A stretch of DNA of 64,000 bases from an uncultured Oscillospiraceae bacterium. GTDB taxonomy: Bacteria; Bacillota; Clostridia; Oscillospirales; Oscillospiraceae. The stretch covers positions 124,001 through 188,000 of the forward strand of contig CATKZP010000002.1 of assembly GCA_949841355.1 (NCBI GenBank), given 5' to 3'. Numbering within the stretch: the stretch's first letter is position 1; every line of letters starts with the position of its first letter. The notes under the pieces were generated by a model. It searched no databases, had not been told where the DNA came from, and saw only the letters and a list, made by a program, of their open reading frames with translations. Below are positions 1,062 through 10,599 of this stretch, piece after piece. The translations under genes and the position numbers were made by a program.

Positions 1062-2297
1062 TCAGCGCTCAATTACGCCTTCCACCATCCGGTCCAGCTG
1101 GGCCTGAAGAGACGCGCCGGAGGGATTTCCTTGGGCCATGCTGGCGGAAAACTCCGCCACAGGGTCCCAGAACTTCCCTCCCACCCGCTGGAGCTGCGAG
1201 TAGTTGGACTGCTCCAGCAGGGCCGCAATGGCCAGAGACGACTGAACCTCGGGGGAGTTGGCCGCGCTGACATTGGCCGGTCCCTGACCTCTCACCTCAA
1301 AGCGCAGGCGCTGGTTTTCCTCGCTGGTAATCCACTCCGCCAGCCGCGCCGCCCAGTCCGGATGCGAAGAATAGGCGTTCACCCCGATGAGCTTGCAGCC
1401 GGAGAAGGACGCCATCTGGATCTGCTGTCCCGCGCAGGTGTATGCAGGCAGCTTGGCCGCTCCCATGTCGGTGCCCCACGCCTCCTCTATGGCCACCGCG
1501 TTCCACACGCCGCTGATGCCGGCGATCACGGTGCCGTCCCGCACGCCGGCGAGAAAATCTCCGTCCGTCCGGTTGGAGAAGGCAGGGCTGGCCGCGATGT
1601 CCAGCATGGCCCGGGCCACATCTGTTCCCCGAATGGGACCGTCGGTACTGTTCCAGGTACAATAGTTGGTCAGGCCGTCCTCGTTGAGCCCTACCTCCAG
1701 CCCGGTGTTGCCGAAGAAGGCATAGACGTACCAGGCCGAGGACCAGTCCATGGACACCAGCTTCTCCGCTTGGGCGGCCACCTCCAGCATCCGCTCCAGG
1801 CTCTGGACGTCCTCGCCGGTGAAATAGGCCTTATTGTAGTACAGGAAATAGCCGTTATCCGCCGTCAGCGGGTAGGCATACAGGGTATTCCCCACGCTGG
1901 CCGCCTCCACCGCGGCGGGGAGAGATGCGCTGCGGATGGCCGCCTCGTCCGCAATCGGGTCCAGCCCGCCTGCGGCGGCCAGCGCGGCCACTTGGTCGTC
2001 GGCAAAGGCAAACACGTCCGCCCCGCCCTCCAGATCGCCCAGCAGAGCGTCCTTGCAGTTGGATTCGCTCTGAGGCTGATAGGTAATCTGAAAATCGGCC
2101 TGCCCGGCATAATGCGCCTGGAAGGACTCGAATATCTGTTTAAGCAGGGCCTCATCCTCCTCGGCGCCCCATACGGTCAGCGCAACGGTTTCCGTCACCG
2201 GCCGGCTCTCATCCGGAACAGGCGTCCGAGCGTCGCAGGCGGCAAGCAGGAATAACAAACAGGCGGATAAAATTAGAAGAAAAATCCGTTTTACCAT
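1062..2297 (-). CDS. Extracellular solute-binding lipoprotein (family 1, sugar-type ABC binding protein)
   Basis: Lipobox LLAAC; VALTVWGAEEDEALLKQIFESFQAHY; typical SBP length. Confidence 0.85.
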   Translation of the reverse strand: MVKRIFLLILSACLLFLLAACDARTPVPDESRPVTETVALTVWGAEEDEALLKQIFESFQAHYAGQADFQITYQPQSESNCKDALLGDLEGGADVFAFADDQVAALAAAGGLDPIADEAAIRSASLPAAVEAASVGNTLYAYPLTADNGYFLYYNKAYFTGEDVQSLERMLEVAAQAEKLVSMDWSSAWYVYAFFGNTGLEVGLNEDGLTNYCTWNSTDGPIRGTDVARAMLDIAASPAFSNRTDGDFLAGVRDGTVIAGISGVWNAVAIEEAWGTDMGAAKLPAYTCAGQQIQMASFSGCKLIGVNAYSSHPDWAARLAEWITSEENQRLRFEVRGQGPANVSAANSPEVQSSLAIAALLEQSNYSQLQRVGGKFWDPVAEFSASMAQGNPSGASLQAQLDRMVEGVIER

Positions 2298-2443
2298 GGT
2301 TCCCCATTCCTCCCATCAATTGCGGAAACATTATAGCATTCCGCAGGCTGGATTTCAACTAAAACTCAGCGCCGCAGTCTAACTTGTTCTTCAGTCTTTC
2401 TAAACGCAAAGCATATTTTGCAGAAAATAGCTTGTGATTAGGC

Positions 2444-2472
2444 TTGATTTTCTCACTGCCATCATTTAAAAT
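2444..2472 (+). promoter_or_regulatory. Candidate sigma-A promoter for the receiver/kinase operon (TTGATT-17-TAAAAT)
   Basis: -35 TTGATT at 2444-2449, 17-bp spacer, -10 TAAAAT at 2467-2472, upstream of the ORF at 2524. Confidence 0.5.
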
Positions 2473-2523
2473 AGATCTTATGGGCTGGGAAAGGCCTGAT
2501 AACAACATGGGGAGGCAGCCGCA

Positions 2524-2886
2524 ATGCAGAAACGCGTTTTGGTGGTAGATGACGACGATATGAACCTGATGAGGACCAAACGGATCCTGGGATATGACTA
2601 CGATGTGTTTTTTGCCAGTTCAGGGGTTGAGGCGCTGGATACATTGAAGCGTGAAATGATGGATCTCGTTCTTTTGGATATTGAGATGCCCAGGATGAAC
2701 GGTTTTGAAACATTTGAACGAATGAAGGAATTCGTCCCTGACATACCCGTGATTTTTTTGACGGCGTCGGGACAGGAGGATGATGTGGTCAGCGCAATCC
2801 GGCTGGGTGCGGTGAATTACCTGAAAAAGCCGTTCCCGCCGCAGGAGCTGCTGGCGCGGGTTACGCAGGAGCTTGAGAAGCAATGA
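2524..2886 (+). CDS. Stand-alone receiver-domain response regulator (CheY-like)
   Basis: VLVVDDDDMN..., LVLLDIEMPRMNGFE, FLTAS, KKPF: complete REC motifs and no output domain. Confidence 0.93.
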   Translation: MQKRVLVVDDDDMNLMRTKRILGYDYDVFFASSGVEALDTLKREMMDLVLLDIEMPRMNGFETFERMKEFVPDIPVIFLTASGQEDDVVSAIRLGAVNYLKKPFPPQELLARVTQELEKQ

Positions 2887-5447
2887 GAGCGGAGGAGCAA
2901 ATAAGCAGACACCTGCTGCTGGCTGTTATTGTCACAGTATTCAGCGCAATGCTGGGTCTGGTTACGGCCGTTATGGCGTGGGAACTCTGGATGGTCCCCC
3001 TGATGGCGGCCGGCTGCTTCAGCGTATGGCTCCTGCACATTGCCAAAATCGGTTCAAACGCATTTTATGAAAATCTCTGCGCCGGATTGATTTTACTGGA
3101 ATTCTTTTTCTTTGGCGTACACGCATCCACCCTTTATGAGATCCCCGCTGTGGCCTGCGTCGTGATTCTTGCCCTGTTCATGCTGAACAAAAGATGGGTC
3201 CTGTATGTGCTTCAGGCTCTGTATGTGGTGGACCTGCTGTACCATGCGCTGATTCTCCATACTATTTCCCGCAACATTGAGTTCCAGGATGCCTTTCGCC
3301 TGGGACTTGGTGTTGTTATGACCTTTGGCGGAGCCGCGCTGGCGGGATACTGGATCAAGCGGCGCACCGCCCAGCGGAATTGGTACGAGCATGTCTTTAC
3401 CGAGCTGGAGACAGCCGGAAAGCAAAACGCCGTCTTTTTGTCCAACGTCTCCCACGAGCTCCGCACGCCAATTAATATGGTAATCGGAATCAGCGAAGTA
3501 GCGCTGGGAAAAGAGCTTTCTCCTGACGTGCGAACGGATTTGAACTCCATAAAGCTGGCGGGAAAGCGCCTGTCCAACCAGATCAACAATATGCTCGACT
3601 ACACGGAAATCGTGGAGGGTACGCTGACGCCGGCCAAGGAAGAGTACATGATTACTTCGGTGCTGAACGATGTAATCACCATGACCGCGCTTCAGAGCAA
3701 CCGGCAGCACCTGGAGATCGTGTTCGATATCGACCCGAAGGTGCCGGCGGTCCTTATCGGAGATGCGGAAAAGATCTCCCATGTGCTCAAAATCCTGGTG
3801 GAAAACTCGATTAAGTTCACGGAAGACGGCGGCGTAAACGTCCGCATCGGATACCGGATGGAAAGCTACGGCATTAACCTGATCATCGACATACGCGATA
3901 CGGGAATCGGGATGACAGATTCCCAGATGCTCCAGATGTACGACGACTTTTACCAGGCGGATTCCGGAAGCAGCCGTTTTGTGGGCGGGCTCGGCCTTGG
4001 GCTCCCCATTGCCCGAGGGCTGCTGAACGCTATGGGCGGCTTCATCCACTTCGAAAGCAAGGGCCGGGAGGGCCTGCACGCCCATATTGCGATTCCCCAG
4101 GGACTGGTGGACAAGCGGCCCTGCATTATGCTCAACGAACCGGATAAACTGTGCATCGCGTGCTATTTCAGGCCAGAGCGGTACAGCTGCGACGAGGTGC
4201 GGGAATACTATGACGGGCTGATTTACAATCTGGTGGAAGGGCTGGGCATCAAAGGGTATCAGACGCATAATTTTGAGGGCCTGCTCAGATTGCAGCGCAC
4301 CCAAAAGCTGACCCATGTGTTCATCGCCCAGTCGGAATACGAGGAGAACCGCGTCTATTATGAAGATCTGGCGGCCACCCTTCAGGTCGTCGTGATTGCC
4401 GATAAAGAGTTCAGCCTGGACAGCGAGAGCAGCCTGCTTATGATACATAAGCCCTTCTCCGCCCTTTCCGTTGCAAACCTGCTCAATGGAGAGCTGGGCG
4501 CGCGCGGCTTTGCGGAAGCCCAGGCCGCGGGCCGGAAGCCGTTCACCTGCCCCGGCGTGCGGGCGCTGGCGGTCGATGACGAAGAGATGAACCTGGTGGT
4601 AGCCAAGGGCGTTTTGGGAAGCTATGGAATCCAGGTGGATACCTGTCTGAGCGGACGGGAGGCGGTGGCGCAGTGCGACAGCGTTTCCTACGACATTATT
4701 TTCCTGGACCATATGATGCCGGGATTTGACGGCGTGCAGACGCTGAAAAAGATCCGGGAGCTCCAAAACAGCGTCTATCAGGATCTGCCGGTGATTGCCT
4801 TGACCGCAAATACTGTCAGCGGCGCGCGGGAGATGTTCCGCGGCGAGGGATTTACAGAATTTGTCCCCAAGCCCATTGAGCGCACGGTTTTGGAGCGGGT
4901 GCTGAGAAGGGTGCTGCCGAAGCATCTCATCCAGTATGTCGAAGAATCCGCAGGCGCGGGCGGGGATGCGCCCAGCGAAGAAGCGCAGGCCGTTCCGGCT
5001 CCGGCGGAGGAGACGCACGCGGCGCCTGGTCCGGCGCAGCCCGCGCAGAGCCCCCAAGCCGCCGTTTTGACCCAAGCCCCGGCGGACGGGCTGGCTCCCC
5101 TCTACGACCGGCTGGCCCAGGCCGGCATCAATGTTGAGGTGGGATTAAATTACTGCGGCGGGGACGAAGGCTTTTTCAGGGAAATGCTGCAAATGTTCCA
5201 AGCCCAAAGCGGAACCAAAAAGGCGGAGATCATTTCGCTGTATGACGAAGCCAATTGGGCGGACTATGCGGTGAAGGTCCACGCATTAAAGAGCACATCG
5301 CTGACCATCGGCGCGGAAGCCCTTTCCTCGCAGGCAAAGGAGCTGGAGCTGGCCGGCAAAAGGGGCGATGCGGACTTCATCCGGGAGCACCACTCTGCGC
5401 TGATGCATGCGTACGACGAGCTCTGCGGACAGCTCGCCGCACTATAA
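2883..5447 (+). CDS. Membrane hybrid sensor histidine kinase (HisKA-HATPase-REC-HPt)
   Basis: N-terminal TM segments; SNVSHELRTPINMVIG (H-box); DTGIGMT and GGLGLGLPIA (N/G boxes); REC (ALAVDDEEMN, IIFLDHMMPGFDG); C-terminal HPt (VHALKSTSLTIG). Confidence 0.93.
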   Translation: MRAEEQISRHLLLAVIVTVFSAMLGLVTAVMAWELWMVPLMAAGCFSVWLLHIAKIGSNAFYENLCAGLILLEFFFFGVHASTLYEIPAVACVVILALFMLNKRWVLYVLQALYVVDLLYHALILHTISRNIEFQDAFRLGLGVVMTFGGAALAGYWIKRRTAQRNWYEHVFTELETAGKQNAVFLSNVSHELRTPINMVIGISEVALGKELSPDVRTDLNSIKLAGKRLSNQINNMLDYTEIVEGTLTPAKEEYMITSVLNDVITMTALQSNRQHLEIVFDIDPKVPAVLIGDAEKISHVLKILVENSIKFTEDGGVNVRIGYRMESYGINLIIDIRDTGIGMTDSQMLQMYDDFYQADSGSSRFVGGLGLGLPIARGLLNAMGGFIHFESKGREGLHAHIAIPQGLVDKRPCIMLNEPDKLCIACYFRPERYSCDEVREYYDGLIYNLVEGLGIKGYQTHNFEGLLRLQRTQKLTHVFIAQSEYEENRVYYEDLAATLQVVVIADKEFSLDSESSLLMIHKPFSALSVANLLNGELGARGFAEAQAAGRKPFTCPGVRALAVDDEEMNLVVAKGVLGSYGIQVDTCLSGREAVAQCDSVSYDIIFLDHMMPGFDGVQTLKKIRELQNSVYQDLPVIALTANTVSGAREMFRGEGFTEFVPKPIERTVLERVLRRVLPKHLIQYVEESAGAGGDAPSEEAQAVPAPAEETHAAPGPAQPAQSPQAAVLTQAPADGLAPLYDRLAQAGINVEVGLNYCGGDEGFFREMLQMFQAQSGTKKAEIISLYDEANWADYAVKVHALKSTSLTIGAEALSSQAKELELAGKRGDADFIREHHSALMHAYDELCGQLAAL

Positions 5448-5477: not shown

Positions 5478-8198
5478 TTGAAAGGAGTGGGAGTCGGCGT
5501 GATTAAGAAATGGTTAGACATCCTCTCAGATCACAAAATCAGTATGCGGGAGCGCATGTTCCGCATTGTGACCTTGATCTGCATGATTGCGCTGGTGTTT
5601 ACCCTGCCCATGGGCAGAAGTATTTTGAACATTGTGATCCTTGTGGCAAGCCTGACGGCCATCGCAATGATTGTGAAGATCAGCGTTCGCAAAGCGTGCA
5701 TCCAAACAGGGGCCACGGCTATCGTTGTCTTGCTGCTGGTGCTGTTCCCGTTCACGTTTTTTTCCGCCGGAGGCTTCTACAGCGGAGTGCCGGAGTGGTT
5801 CGTACTTTGTTTTCTTTATATCTGCATCACCTTGCAGGGAAGGCGCATGGCCGTGTTTTTCGGATTGTGCACGGCGGAGACGCTGCTCTGCTATGGCATC
5901 GCCTTTTATTTCCCGGAGGTCGCCGCCCTGAACACCCAGCAGCGGTCCTTCTTTGATTCCGCCTTTTCCATGATTATGGTGGGTCTGCTCACCAGCGTGC
6001 TGCTCATGTTCCTGAATCGGATGTATGAGGAGGAAAACGCCCTGACGCAGCAGCAGAAAAAGGAAATTGAGGAGCTGAACCAGGCGGAGAACAATTTCTT
6101 TTCCAGCATGAGCCATGAGATCCGCACGCCCATCAACACGATCATTGGGTTAAATGAGATCACGCTGCGGGGGGATATCCCGGACGACGTGGCGGAGAAC
6201 GCCAGAAATATTCAGGGCGCCAGCAAGCTGCTGCTCACGCTGATTAACGACATCCTGGACATATCCAAGATCAAATCCGGAAAAATGGAGATCGTCAACA
6301 CCTCTTATGAGACGGGGATGCTTTTTTCCGAGATTGTCAACATGATCTGGATTAAGGCGAAGGAAAAGGGGCTGGAGTTTAAGCTGCATGTGGACCCATC
6401 CATCCCCAGCATGCTCTGCGGCGACGAGGTGCGCATCAAGCAGGTCCTGATCAATTTGCTGAATAACGCGGTGAAATACACCAGCGAGGGTTCGGTGACT
6501 CTCTCCATCCGCTGTGAGCGCCAGGGGGTCAACCGGGTGCGGGTCTGGTATTCTGTGGAGGATACCGGGCAGGGGGTGAAGAAGGAAAACATCCCGTATA
6601 TTTTCAACGCGTTCCGGCGGGTGGACGAGGAAAAAAACCGCCATATTGAGGGCACCGGGCTGGGGCTGAGCATTGTCCAGCAGCTGGTGGAGCTCATGGG
6701 CGGCGAGATCAGCGTAAACAGCGTTTACACGAAGGGCTCAAAATTTATCGTCACGCTGGATCAGGATATCGTAGACGACAAGGAGCTGGGGACCTTTACC
6801 CTGGCTTCCCGGGCGAAGCTCCATGACAACGGGCCGTACCAGCAGAGCTTTGAGGCGCCGGAGGCGCATATCCTGGTGGTAGACGACAACGACATGAACC
6901 TGATGGTGGTGACCAAGCTGCTGGCGGAGACCAAAATCCAGATTGACACCGCATCCAGCGGCGTGGAATGCCTGAAGCTGACCCAGAGCCACCGCTACGA
7001 CTGCATCCTGATGGATCATTTGATGCCTGAAATGGACGGGATTGAATGCCTTCACGCCCTGCGGCGGCAGCCGGGAGGGCTGTGCCAGGATGTGCCCGTG
7101 GTAGCGCTGACCGCCAATGCGGGCAGCGACAACCAGCTGCTTTACAAAAAGGAAGGGTTTAGCGGCTATCTGGCCAAGCCGGTGGGCGGCGCGCTGCTGG
7201 AGGCTGCTGTGCTGAGCCTTCTGCCAAAGAAGCTGGTGCGGTTGTGTGAGCAAACCGGCCATCTGGACCTGGACAAGGATATCCTCATCTTTGAACAGGC
7301 AAAGCGGCGGTCTATCCTCGTGACGACAGACAGTGTGTGCGATCTGCCGGAATCTCTCATCAAGGAATTCGGCATTTCCGTCTGCCCCTACTATATCTGC
7401 ACAGACGAGGGCCGTTTTTTGGATGGTCAGGAGCTGCAGCCGGACGAGCTGCTCGCCCACATAGCGCAGGGACGGAAGGGGTACTCTCAGTCTCCTGACG
7501 TGGAGGACTATGAGCGATTCTTCGCGGAAAAGCTGACAGAAGCGCAGAACGTGATCCATATTACCATGGCAAAGCACGTGAGCGTGGGGTATCAAAACGC
7601 CCTCGAGGCAGCCAAATCCTTTAATAACGTTACGGTGATAAACTCCGGTCACCTCTCCAGCAGCATGGGTCTGGCGGTGCTGTTGGCGGCTCAGCTGGCG
7701 GAACATCATGTCCCCAAGGCGGAGATCGTGGCGTCGGTCAAGCGGATTGAGCGTTTTATTTCCTCCGCTTTTATCATAAACAGCACTCATATGATGTGCC
7801 AGTCCGGGCGGATCTCCAAACGGATACAGGTTTTATGTGACGCGCTGCTGCTGCACCCAGTTCTCGTACTGCGAAAAAGCAAAATGGCAGTGGACAGCAT
7901 GGAGATGGGCAGTTTCAACCATGTGGCGAAAAAATATGTCCGAAAGGTGCTCCAAGAGACCAGAAGCATCGACCGGCGCATCCTGTTTATCACCTATTCC
8001 GGCCTGGATCAGAAAAAGCTCCAGTACATTCAGAATTTGGTCCAGCAGTACTGCCCGTTTGAACGGGTCTACCTACAAAAAGCATCTGCCGCCATCGCAA
8101 GCAACTGCGGCCCGGGTTCCTTTGGACTGCTGTTCATGCGAAAAGACGAATCCTCGCTCCCAGATGCCCAGGCGCCCAGGCAGGACGGGGCGGCCTAG
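5478..8198 (+). CDS. Hybrid sensor histidine kinase with C-terminal DegV-family domain (TM-HisKA-HATPase-REC-DegV)
   Basis: SSMSHEIRTPINTIIG; GTGLGLSIV; REC (ILVVDDNDMN, CILMDHLMPEMDG); then SILVTTDSVCDLPESLIKEFGISVCPYYI...SGHLSSSMGL...QSGRISK...HPVLVLRKSKM, a full-length DegV-like region in one uninterrupted ORF. Confidence 0.92.
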   Translation: MKGVGVGVIKKWLDILSDHKISMRERMFRIVTLICMIALVFTLPMGRSILNIVILVASLTAIAMIVKISVRKACIQTGATAIVVLLLVLFPFTFFSAGGFYSGVPEWFVLCFLYICITLQGRRMAVFFGLCTAETLLCYGIAFYFPEVAALNTQQRSFFDSAFSMIMVGLLTSVLLMFLNRMYEEENALTQQQKKEIEELNQAENNFFSSMSHEIRTPINTIIGLNEITLRGDIPDDVAENARNIQGASKLLLTLINDILDISKIKSGKMEIVNTSYETGMLFSEIVNMIWIKAKEKGLEFKLHVDPSIPSMLCGDEVRIKQVLINLLNNAVKYTSEGSVTLSIRCERQGVNRVRVWYSVEDTGQGVKKENIPYIFNAFRRVDEEKNRHIEGTGLGLSIVQQLVELMGGEISVNSVYTKGSKFIVTLDQDIVDDKELGTFTLASRAKLHDNGPYQQSFEAPEAHILVVDDNDMNLMVVTKLLAETKIQIDTASSGVECLKLTQSHRYDCILMDHLMPEMDGIECLHALRRQPGGLCQDVPVVALTANAGSDNQLLYKKEGFSGYLAKPVGGALLEAAVLSLLPKKLVRLCEQTGHLDLDKDILIFEQAKRRSILVTTDSVCDLPESLIKEFGISVCPYYICTDEGRFLDGQELQPDELLAHIAQGRKGYSQSPDVEDYERFFAEKLTEAQNVIHITMAKHVSVGYQNALEAAKSFNNVTVINSGHLSSSMGLAVLLAAQLAEHHVPKAEIVASVKRIERFISSAFIINSTHMMCQSGRISKRIQVLCDALLLHPVLVLRKSKMAVDSMEMGSFNHVAKKYVRKVLQETRSIDRRILFITYSGLDQKKLQYIQNLVQQYCPFERVYLQKASAAIASNCGPGSFGLLFMRKDESSLPDAQAPRQDGAA

Positions 8199-8228: not shown

Positions 8229-8267
8229 AAAAGGCGCGGAAGGCTGAAGCCTTCCGCGCCTTTTTCT
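8229..8267. terminator. Bidirectional rho-independent terminator between convergent genes
   Basis: AAAAGGCGCGGAAGGCTGAAGCCTTCCGCGCCTTTTT. Confidence 0.9.
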
Positions 8268-8277
8268 TTGACAGCCG

Positions 8278-9381
8278 TCACCGCGCGCCTTCCGCCGGTA
8301 CGGCTTTTTTGATCCGTTCCGCCGTTTGAGGCAGCCGGACTCCCGCCTCCGCCCCGACGGATGCTTTTCTCCGGCGCATCCGCCGGCCCGCCGCCAGGAT
8401 GATGGCGGTGGCGGCCAGCACCAGATAGCAGTTCAGCGTCCGGCTCAAAATCATGGCGGGCGCCACCAGCCCCTGGCCATACACCAGCAGGAACCCGCGC
8501 AGGAACACGCTTTCCGCCGCCCCGGCGGACCCGGGCAGGGGCAGATAGCCCACCGCGATGGCGCACAGCGCCTGGAGGGCCATCACCTCCCACAGCGAGA
8601 AGCCGGACAGCCCGAAGGCACGGTAGACCACATAGGGCATGGCGTAGGAGCAGGCCAGCTGAAGGGCGCTCAGCCCCACCACCTTGGCCAGCAGTTCCGG
8701 GGAACGGCGGATGAGATTCGCGCCCCGGCGGTATTCCGCCAGGTGCTCGTCCGCCCTGGCCTCCAGCCCCGCCCTGTCCAACGCGGGGAACAGCTTCGCC
8801 CCCAGGGCGATGCAGCCATACAGCAGCTTTTTGGCGGGGCCGGGGAGGAACAGGAAGAGGAACATGGCCGCATCCAGCAGGGCGAACACCGCCAGGCCGA
8901 AGCCCAGCAGCAGCCCCACCTGTCCCCCCAGGCGCTCGGTGAGCCCGCCTGCGGCACACAGGGCAAAGACGCCCCACCCCATGGCCGCGGTATTGTAGCC
9001 GATGGTGACCAGCAGCATGTCCAGCGCGCCGGTGGCGGCAGGGGTGCCGTCCTTGCTCATGGACACCACCTGGGCGGGCTGGCCGCCGGTGGCAGAGGGG
9101 GTGATGGTGCTGAAAAAGAAGCCCACACAGGAATAATACGCGCACCGCCGGAAGGGCTGGGGACTGCCCAGAGCGCGCAGAATGGAGTGGGTGGCCTTAG
9201 CCTCGCAGCAGATGAACAGCGCCATCAACGGCACGCCCAGCAGCAGCACCCGCCAGTCGGCGCTGAGCAGGGCGGCGGCCAGCTGCCCCGGCGTCTGCTG
9301 CTGGAAGATGGTGTATACTGTCCAGGCCAGCAGGGCAAACACCGCCCCGGTGCACACAATATTTTTCAGCTGGTTTTTCAC
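8278..9381 (-). CDS. YbhN/UPF0104 (LPG synthase TM-region-like) flippase family membrane protein
   Basis: About eight TM helices, YLPLPGSAGAAESVFLRGF, TPSATGGQPAQV; GTG start at 9381 overlaps the upstream gene's stop (listed ORF runs to 9426). Confidence 0.75.
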   Translation of the reverse strand: MKNQLKNIVCTGAVFALLAWTVYTIFQQQTPGQLAAALLSADWRVLLLGVPLMALFICCEAKATHSILRALGSPQPFRRCAYYSCVGFFFSTITPSATGGQPAQVVSMSKDGTPAATGALDMLLVTIGYNTAAMGWGVFALCAAGGLTERLGGQVGLLLGFGLAVFALLDAAMFLFLFLPGPAKKLLYGCIALGAKLFPALDRAGLEARADEHLAEYRRGANLIRRSPELLAKVVGLSALQLACSYAMPYVVYRAFGLSGFSLWEVMALQALCAIAVGYLPLPGSAGAAESVFLRGFLLVYGQGLVAPAMILSRTLNCYLVLAATAIILAAGRRMRRRKASVGAEAGVRLPQTAERIKKAVPAEGAR

Positions 9382-10451
9382 GCGCGGACACTCCCTTCCT
9401 CCGCCAACGAGCGCACCACGGCGCACGCGGCGGTGCGGCTGAGGTCGGCGGCCATCTCGTCCATGGCCCGCTCCATGGCGGACAGGGCCAGGTCGTCATA
9501 GATGGTCTCCCGGATGGCGGCGAGACAGGCGCTCTCCTCCTTGGCGGCGATGCGGGCCATGCCCCGGCGCACCAGGAAGTTGGCGTTCTCCTGCTCCTGC
9601 TTCAAAAACGGCTGCCAGGCCAGGATGGGCAGCCGGGCGGCAATGGCCTCGAAGCAGGTGATGCCGCCGGGCTTGGACAGCATGAGGCTGGCCCGGGCCA
9701 TGTACTTCTCCACCTGAGTGGTGAAGGGAACGGCCTCGATGTTCTCATACCTGCCGTCCAGGCGCTGGAAGAGCTTGTCGTTGCGGCCGGTGAGGATCGT
9801 GGTGTGCACGCCGGGCAGGGCGTTGAGGGCCTGGTAAAAGGAATCCCTCCGGGGCATGAGGCCCAGGCCGCCCCCCATGATGAGCAGCTCCCGCCGTTTG
9901 GAAGCGTCCTTGCGGGCGGGTTGGAACCGCCCGCTGACGGGGATGCCGGACACCACCACGGCGTCCGGATCGGCGCCCTTGGCGATGAATCCCTGGCGCA
10001 CGGACTCCTCCGCCACCAGATAGCAGTCGGTGCCCGGGTGGAGCCATTCGCTGTGGCAGGTCACGTCGGTGACGCAGGTGACCAGAGGGATGTCCGACGG
10101 CCCCTCCTCCTTGTATTTGGCCATGGCGGCGGAGCAGATGGGGTGGGTGGACACCACCACGTCGGGCGCGTACTCGTCCAGCAGCCGGTCCAGCCCGCCC
10201 AGCAGGTTGTCCCCCCGGCCGTCGCCGGAGTCGTTCACCGTCAGGTCGTGGTAGATGTTATAGAACACCCCGCCGTAAGTCACCAGCACGTTAAACCACC
10301 AGTACATGGCGGGGGCCGCCTCGGGGACGGCGTATTCAAACAGGTCGATGACATCGGCCTTATGGCCCTCCTGCTCCAGCTGCTCCCGCAGCGCGTTGGC
10401 GGCGGACAGATGGCCCATGCCGAATTTGCCTGTCAAAATCAAAATGTTCAT
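9378..10451 (-). CDS. MGDG synthase/UgtP-like glycosyltransferase (processive diacylglycerol glucosyltransferase family)
   Basis: MNILILTGKFGMGHLSAANALREQLEQEGHKADVIDLFEY; SKPGGITCFEAIA. Internal ATG at 10451 chosen. Confidence 0.85.
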   Translation of the reverse strand: MNILILTGKFGMGHLSAANALREQLEQEGHKADVIDLFEYAVPEAAPAMYWWFNVLVTYGGVFYNIYHDLTVNDSGDGRGDNLLGGLDRLLDEYAPDVVVSTHPICSAAMAKYKEEGPSDIPLVTCVTDVTCHSEWLHPGTDCYLVAEESVRQGFIAKGADPDAVVVSGIPVSGRFQPARKDASKRRELLIMGGGLGLMPRRDSFYQALNALPGVHTTILTGRNDKLFQRLDGRYENIEAVPFTTQVEKYMARASLMLSKPGGITCFEAIAARLPILAWQPFLKQEQENANFLVRRGMARIAAKEESACLAAIRETIYDDLALSAMERAMDEMAADLSRTAACAVVRSLAEEGSVRA

Positions 10452-10599
10452 GAAGCTCCTCCTTACGTCGGCACAAGCTGCGCTCGCCTGCTTCCGCCTG
10501 CGGCGGAAGCTCATGCAGATGTCGTTTGACAGTACCGATTATAGAGGACAAATCTTCATTTTCAATACAGATGCGTCTTATATTTTGGTGGGGTTTTCC

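Follow-up and report, generated by a model that had tools for sequence, protein, structure and literature searches.

The window analysed here, a stretch of 64,000 nucleotides from an uncultured Oscillospiraceae bacterium, contains a gene in which a DegV domain follows the receiver of a membrane-anchored hybrid histidine kinase. It raises two questions: whether the fusion is real, and whether its DegV domain serves FakA as FakB proteins do, acts as an output of the kinase, or feeds information into a signalling pathway.

The HK-REC-DegV gene

Positions 5478-8198 of the forward strand form a single unbroken ORF of 906 aa. An initial annotation had read from it a continuous succession of membrane segments, HisKA, HATPase, REC and DegV, and both the frame and the Pfam matches bear this out: HisKA covers residues 204-268 (1.2e-15), HATPase_c 315-429 (1.1e-27), REC 465-578 (6.3e-24) and DegV 613-888 (PF02645, 2.3e-38). 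The profile search that the annotation had proposed as a check on the DegV domain gave a near-full match (positions 2-279 of 280), with a score of 132.6 bits against a cut-off of 27; the NCBIfam DegV model TIGR00762 scores the fusion at 148.7 bits against a curated cut-off of 99.7. The N-terminus has five to six predicted membrane segments (five by hydropathy) and a conserved GG...SG.P.WF motif. The annotated span of the ORF stands, but its start codon does not: translation probably begins at GTG 5499 rather than at TTG 5478, because a putative ribosome-binding site, AAAGGAG, sits just after the TTG and the homologues start with V(I/L)KKW.

The HisKA His, the G1 Asp, the G2 Gly and the REC Asp, Thr and Lys are all kept in 93 of 93 fusions, and the N box position in 86 of 93. 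Judged by these active-site residues, the protein qualifies as a predicted hybrid histidine kinase.

Occurrence of the fusion in other genomes

The same fusion is found intact in about 90 other loci, isolate genomes included. Three further genomes of the genus carry orthologues with an open frame, about equal length and an identical junction. A search of 401 genomes of the family at an E-value of 1e-45 gave matches in 20, namely the window's own genome, 15 others with the fusion and four with free DegV only. The 15 are spread over 10 more genera; two of their copies are cut by contig ends, and two of the genomes hold several copies. The fusion is also carried by 80 named genome contigs, with DegV parts that are 71-85% identical; contig ends cut five of the 80, leaving 75 loci testable for upstream gene order. 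The initial annotation had itself raised the danger that a frameshift or an assembly error had joined a kinase gene to a degV gene. The intact copies exclude this: fusion length and junction are equal in about 90 independent loci, no support for an artefact was found, and we consider its probability negligible.

In a class-level search, matches of at least 246 bits all lie in long open frames of 724-1145 aa and those of at most 242 bits are free DegV proteins, a gap which sets the fused domains apart as a separate group. In the tree of DegV domains the fusions form one clade with 100/100 support on a long stem (1.74 changes per site); L033 and L119, two 'free' rows inside it, are really fusions cut by contig ends. 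Three loci considered as carrying extra N-terminal extensions (L013, L016 and L023) were rejected as free DegV genes with an upstream frame that is open but non-coding-looking, from the sequence itself for L013 and L016 and by analogy for L023.

The three-gene operon

What the initial annotation missed is the setting of the DegV kinase, which is the third gene of a conserved unit, preceded by a lone receiver and by a second hybrid kinase, HK-REC-Hpt, whose start codon overlaps the receiver stop (ATGA). All three genes occur in this order at 73 of the 75 testable named loci, with the receiver and the first kinase mostly 0-6 nt apart. The phospho-Asp of the lone receiver is kept in 77 of 77 relatives; in the partner kinase the HisKA His and the REC Asp are kept in 88 of 88, and the Hpt His in 85. 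Across 80 loci DNA similarity typically starts at 2440-2524 (about 2435-2524 in most relatives) and ends at 8138-8161, which are the limits of the operon, and no other flanking gene family recurs in more than 10 of 89 loci. A promoter-like match and a strong terminator flank the operon on either side (Table 1).

In the partner kinase (2883-5447), the interval between HATPase and REC (residues ~410-555) is long and resembles a degenerate receiver; it has no Pfam match.

Downstream, a flippase-like and an MGDG-synthase-like gene converge on the operon from the opposite strand and are lipid-related in appearance. A functional link to them was rejected, as they are absent beside other operon copies. 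Just upstream lie an extracellular solute-binding protein and a methyl-accepting chemotaxis protein (window 1062-2297 and L026:13448-15049, both on the minus strand); a link to this pair was set aside, since only four other loci (L070, L071, L075 and L091) have it close to the operon.

Table 1. Features of the window and of remote relatives of the operon. Positions without a locus prefix are those of the window.
Feature	Position	Strand	Basis or remark
Putative promoter TTGATT-17-TAAAAT	2440..2475	+	Promoter-like match 2444-2472; putative function
Lone receiver, 120 aa, single-domain response regulator	2524..2886	+	Pfam Response_reg 3.6e-31
Hybrid kinase 1, TM-HisKA-HATPase-REC-Hpt	2883..5447	+	Pfam HisKA, HATPase_c, REC, Hpt
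Ribosome-binding site AAAGGAG for GTG 5499	5481..5487	+	Read in the sequence; putative function
Hybrid kinase 2, TM-HisKA-HATPase-REC-DegV	5499..8198	+	Longest ORF from TTG 5478; probable start GTG 5499
DegV domain	7314..8141	+	Pfam PF02645; AF2 model and Foldseek
Intrinsic terminator, 12 bp GC-rich stem, TGAA loop, T run	8233..8268	+	Fold -30.5 kcal/mol, z -6.4
Flippase-like membrane protein	8278-9426	-	Name from sequence reading
MGDG-synthase-like glycosyltransferase	9378-10514	-	Name from sequence reading
HK-REC-DegV-Hpt, long forms, 1129-1145 aa	L064:7419-10829, L204:7669-11106, L061:287-3682, L063:7611-11000		
REC-HD-GYP regulator	L060:13573-14580, L207:2033-3163; L062		L062 by sequence
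REC-GGDEF-REC regulator	L205:14025-15827		
REC-GGDEF-REC-HD-GYP regulator	L203:13877-16255		
Regulator with GGDEF and/or HD-GYP	L206:2329-4122		
REC-GGDEF regulator with Hpt	L064		

Remote relatives and the position of the Hpt domain

The relation between the two kinases is illuminated by remote relatives, in which the Hpt domain changes place. In L064 and L204, the complete loci among the long HK-REC-DegV-Hpt forms, it forms the C-terminus of the DegV kinase and the partner kinase has none. The reverse holds in L060 and L206: the Hpt is on the partner kinase and missing from the DegV kinase (judged by length in L060). L208 shows no Pfam Hpt match in either kinase, and it has a separate gene that aligns to the REC-Hpt part. 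A further Hpt sits on the response regulator of L064, so that a strict rule of 'exactly one Hpt' does not hold. A shifting position is what would be expected if both kinases shared one phosphotransfer step. Because the Hpt moves between the partner kinase, the DegV kinase and a separate gene, and because the regulator varies as well, the three genes probably form one phosphorelay, in which the two kinases may exchange phosphate.

Regulators beside the remote operons bear HD-GYP or GGDEF domains (Table 1), and these forms are therefore probably tied to c-di-GMP turnover. An HD-GYP domain is absent from the operon in the window, which has the lone REC instead; the main group likewise has a lone receiver.

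These arrangements bear on the possibility that the DegV domain is an output, phosphorylation of REC opening or closing its lipid pocket so that the kinase controls a membrane-tethered fatty-acid carrier. The domain does lie directly after REC, where response regulators place their output domains. In some members, however, an Hpt follows the DegV domain, so REC probably hands its phosphate onward, and an Hpt and a receiver accompany the fusion in the loci examined. With HK-REC-Hpt and receiver partners so conserved, a sensor arm of a phosphorelay is a likelier role for the protein than a phosphorylation-gated carrier.

The DegV domain and the FakB residues

The AF2 model of the DegV domain has a pLDDT of 76 and a pTM of 0.75, with one of five models above pLDDT 70; its confidence is moderate and rests on close homologues. 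Its best Foldseek match is 2dt8 (TM 0.81/0.83, E 1.3e-22), and it superposes on FakB1 with a TM of 0.80. The modelled domain thus has the DegV/FakB fold. A model of REC and DegV together reached a pTM of 0.39 with a low-confidence linker, and the packing that it proposed was discarded.

In FakB1 the fatty-acid carboxylate is held by a network of Thr62, Ser95 and His270 (Ser171-His270-Thr62-carboxylate-Ser95), Arg173 is both latch and catalytic residue, and Arg205 is the FakA-docking and membrane-encounter residue; Arg173 and Arg205 are completely conserved in FakB (PMC8892158). We mapped these positions in 98 fusions and 44 free relatives, with the numbering checked on the pairwise alignment; the cut fusions L033 and L119 were counted as free, which slightly understates the contrast. 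The hydroxyls are mostly kept: the Thr62 position is Ser or Thr in 94 of 98 fusions and in all 44 free relatives, and Ser95 is present in 88 of 98 against 44 of 44, the window having Ser at both. Arg173 is found in 53 of 98 fusions against 44 of 44 free relatives, and is kept in the window. Arg205, present in 38 of 44 free relatives, remains in one of 98 fusions, and in the window the aligned residue is Met or, in a different alignment, the Gly next to it. His270 also survives in a single fusion against 41 of 44 free relatives, Asn replacing it in 96 of the 98 and in the window. The domain had initially been described as a complete DegV domain; this is true of the fold, but not of the residues by which FakB works. 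Its reading as a full FakB-type carrier finds no support: Arg205 and His270 are replaced throughout the clade and Arg173, kept in the window, is lost in nearly half of the fusions.

No fakA was seen in the window, as had been noted initially, and a FakA-like frame of 574 aa is encoded elsewhere in the genome, along with four free DegV proteins. One free DegV gene (L026:6563-7405, minus strand), about 7 kb upstream of the window, adjoins a MarR-like regulator and a histidine kinase. Since Arg205 and His270 are replaced and the free proteins could serve the FakA-like protein, the fused domain has probably left FakA-dependent metabolism while keeping the carboxylate-binding hydroxyls. Its residues suggest a sensor or gating domain, probably not a carrier for FakA.

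An ordinary FakB, tethered to a kinase by chance and still feeding FakA, would account for the full-length DegV match and for the FakA-like protein in the genome. It is very improbable, given that docking and carboxylate-network residues are replaced clade-wide and that four free DegV proteins are already available to FakA. The output role considered above gains something from the retained hydroxyls and from the same FakA-like protein, but the exchange of Arg205 and of His270, each in 97 of 98 fusions, speaks against it, and we regard it as unlikely.

The changes at these positions could also mean that the fold has ceased to bind a ligand and has become a module for docking or dimerisation, linking the two kinases or bringing in a partner. 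The long stem of the fusion clade, the near-invariant Asn in place of His270, the variable Arg173 and the joint inheritance of both kinases are all compatible with such a module. Against it, the Thr62 and Ser95 positions are highly conserved, which would be unexpected of an idle pocket; we think this explanation improbable, though less so than an output role.

The leading idea is that lipid binding serves as an input. The pocket residues suggest that the DegV domain may bind a lipid, and binding of that ligand would then act as the input; as nearly half of the fusions lack Arg173, that ligand could be something other than a fatty acid. In the mechanism we propose, HK-REC-Hpt and HK-REC-DegV would constitute one signalling unit with a single common Hpt step, through which phosphate would pass to the receiver that the first gene of the operon encodes. 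DegV would be a derived FakB-fold module, not a substrate carrier for FakA. Near the membrane it would hold an acyl or related amphipathic ligand, and its ligand state would alter the adjacent kinase or receiver. We give an even chance to such a three-protein phosphorelay, with DegV as a cytoplasmic, membrane-proximal ligand sensor modulating the kinase or REC.

Spread between families

Comparison of Oscillospiraceae with Lachnospiraceae gives 72-77% identity for the fusion and only 63-68% for RpoB; L078 is left out of it, and group averages involving Oscillospiraceae are not used. Within Lachnospiraceae the relation is reversed (L112 and L146: RpoB 94%, fusion 77%). The full-length tree nests the window's Oscillospiraceae group (11 rows, support 100/99) in a mostly Lachnospiraceae set, and L058 and L059, also of the window's family, branch elsewhere. 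The identity contrast and the nesting indicate at least one move of the operon between the two families, and probably more than one.

Carriage of the operon by plasmids or phages was considered and rejected, as neither plasmid nor phage records hold a full-length match. The sole match in the plasmid records was a Treponema kinase covering 46% of the query, and the matching phage records, unannotated faecal contigs, align with DegV only, at 25-32% identity. Many carriers among L070-L149 are presumably mouse-gut isolates or mouse-gut catalogue genomes, to judge from their strain and catalogue names, and an association with the host niche is possible.

Comparison with known systems

The fused domain shares its fold with FakB/DegV proteins such as S. 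aureus FakB1 and T. thermophilus 2dt8 (TM 0.8, ~20-27% identity; PF02645, TIGR00762) and keeps most of the hydroxyls that hold the fatty-acid carboxylate. It differs from them in standing behind HK-REC and being membrane-anchored, with Arg205 and His270 replaced and Arg173 variable. Its HisKA-HATPase-REC core is that of BarA/TorS/ArcB-type kinases, which rank first among its NCBIfam kinase matches, with scores that all fall far short of the cut-off; those kinases lack DegV, whereas the putative relay here is divided over two membrane kinases. The lone 120-aa REC has the phosphorylation residues of Spo0F/CheY-like single-domain receivers, but is encoded here at the head of an operon with two kinases.

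In function, the DSF system of Xanthomonas comes closest: its membrane hybrid kinase RpfC, which has REC and Hpt, binds a fatty-acid signal and works with the HD-GYP regulator RpfG. A short N-terminal region of RpfC senses DSF, and a DegV domain is not described in this kinase (PMC5391125). The resemblance is one of working, not of membership: here there are two hybrid kinases, in a different phylum, and an HD-GYP partner occurs only in the remote relatives L060, L062, L207 and L203, the partner in the window being a lone REC.

Searches of the openly licensed PMC literature on DegV together with kinases, receivers or lipid sensing turned up no description of a histidine kinase-DegV fusion, and within that scope the initial impression that the architecture is not well described holds. 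We tentatively propose, at somewhat less than even confidence, that the operon represents an undescribed class of lipid-sensing phosphorelay in Clostridia, in which a FakB fold released from the fatty-acid-kinase pathway has become the intracellular acyl sensor of a relay with two kinases; in its remote forms this relay would control c-di-GMP enzymes, and its three genes would travel between gut bacterial families as a cassette.

The fused domain is a version of a well-studied lipid-carrier fold that clear residue changes set apart from metabolic FakB. The proposed mechanism predicts a ligand in the pocket, an Asn-for-His switch and phosphotransfer through one common Hpt. The operon is a signalling unit shared by two dominant gut families, both conserved and horizontally transferred. 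Little is understood of how gut Clostridia detect host and dietary fatty acids inside the cell, and it is there that this operon would be relevant.
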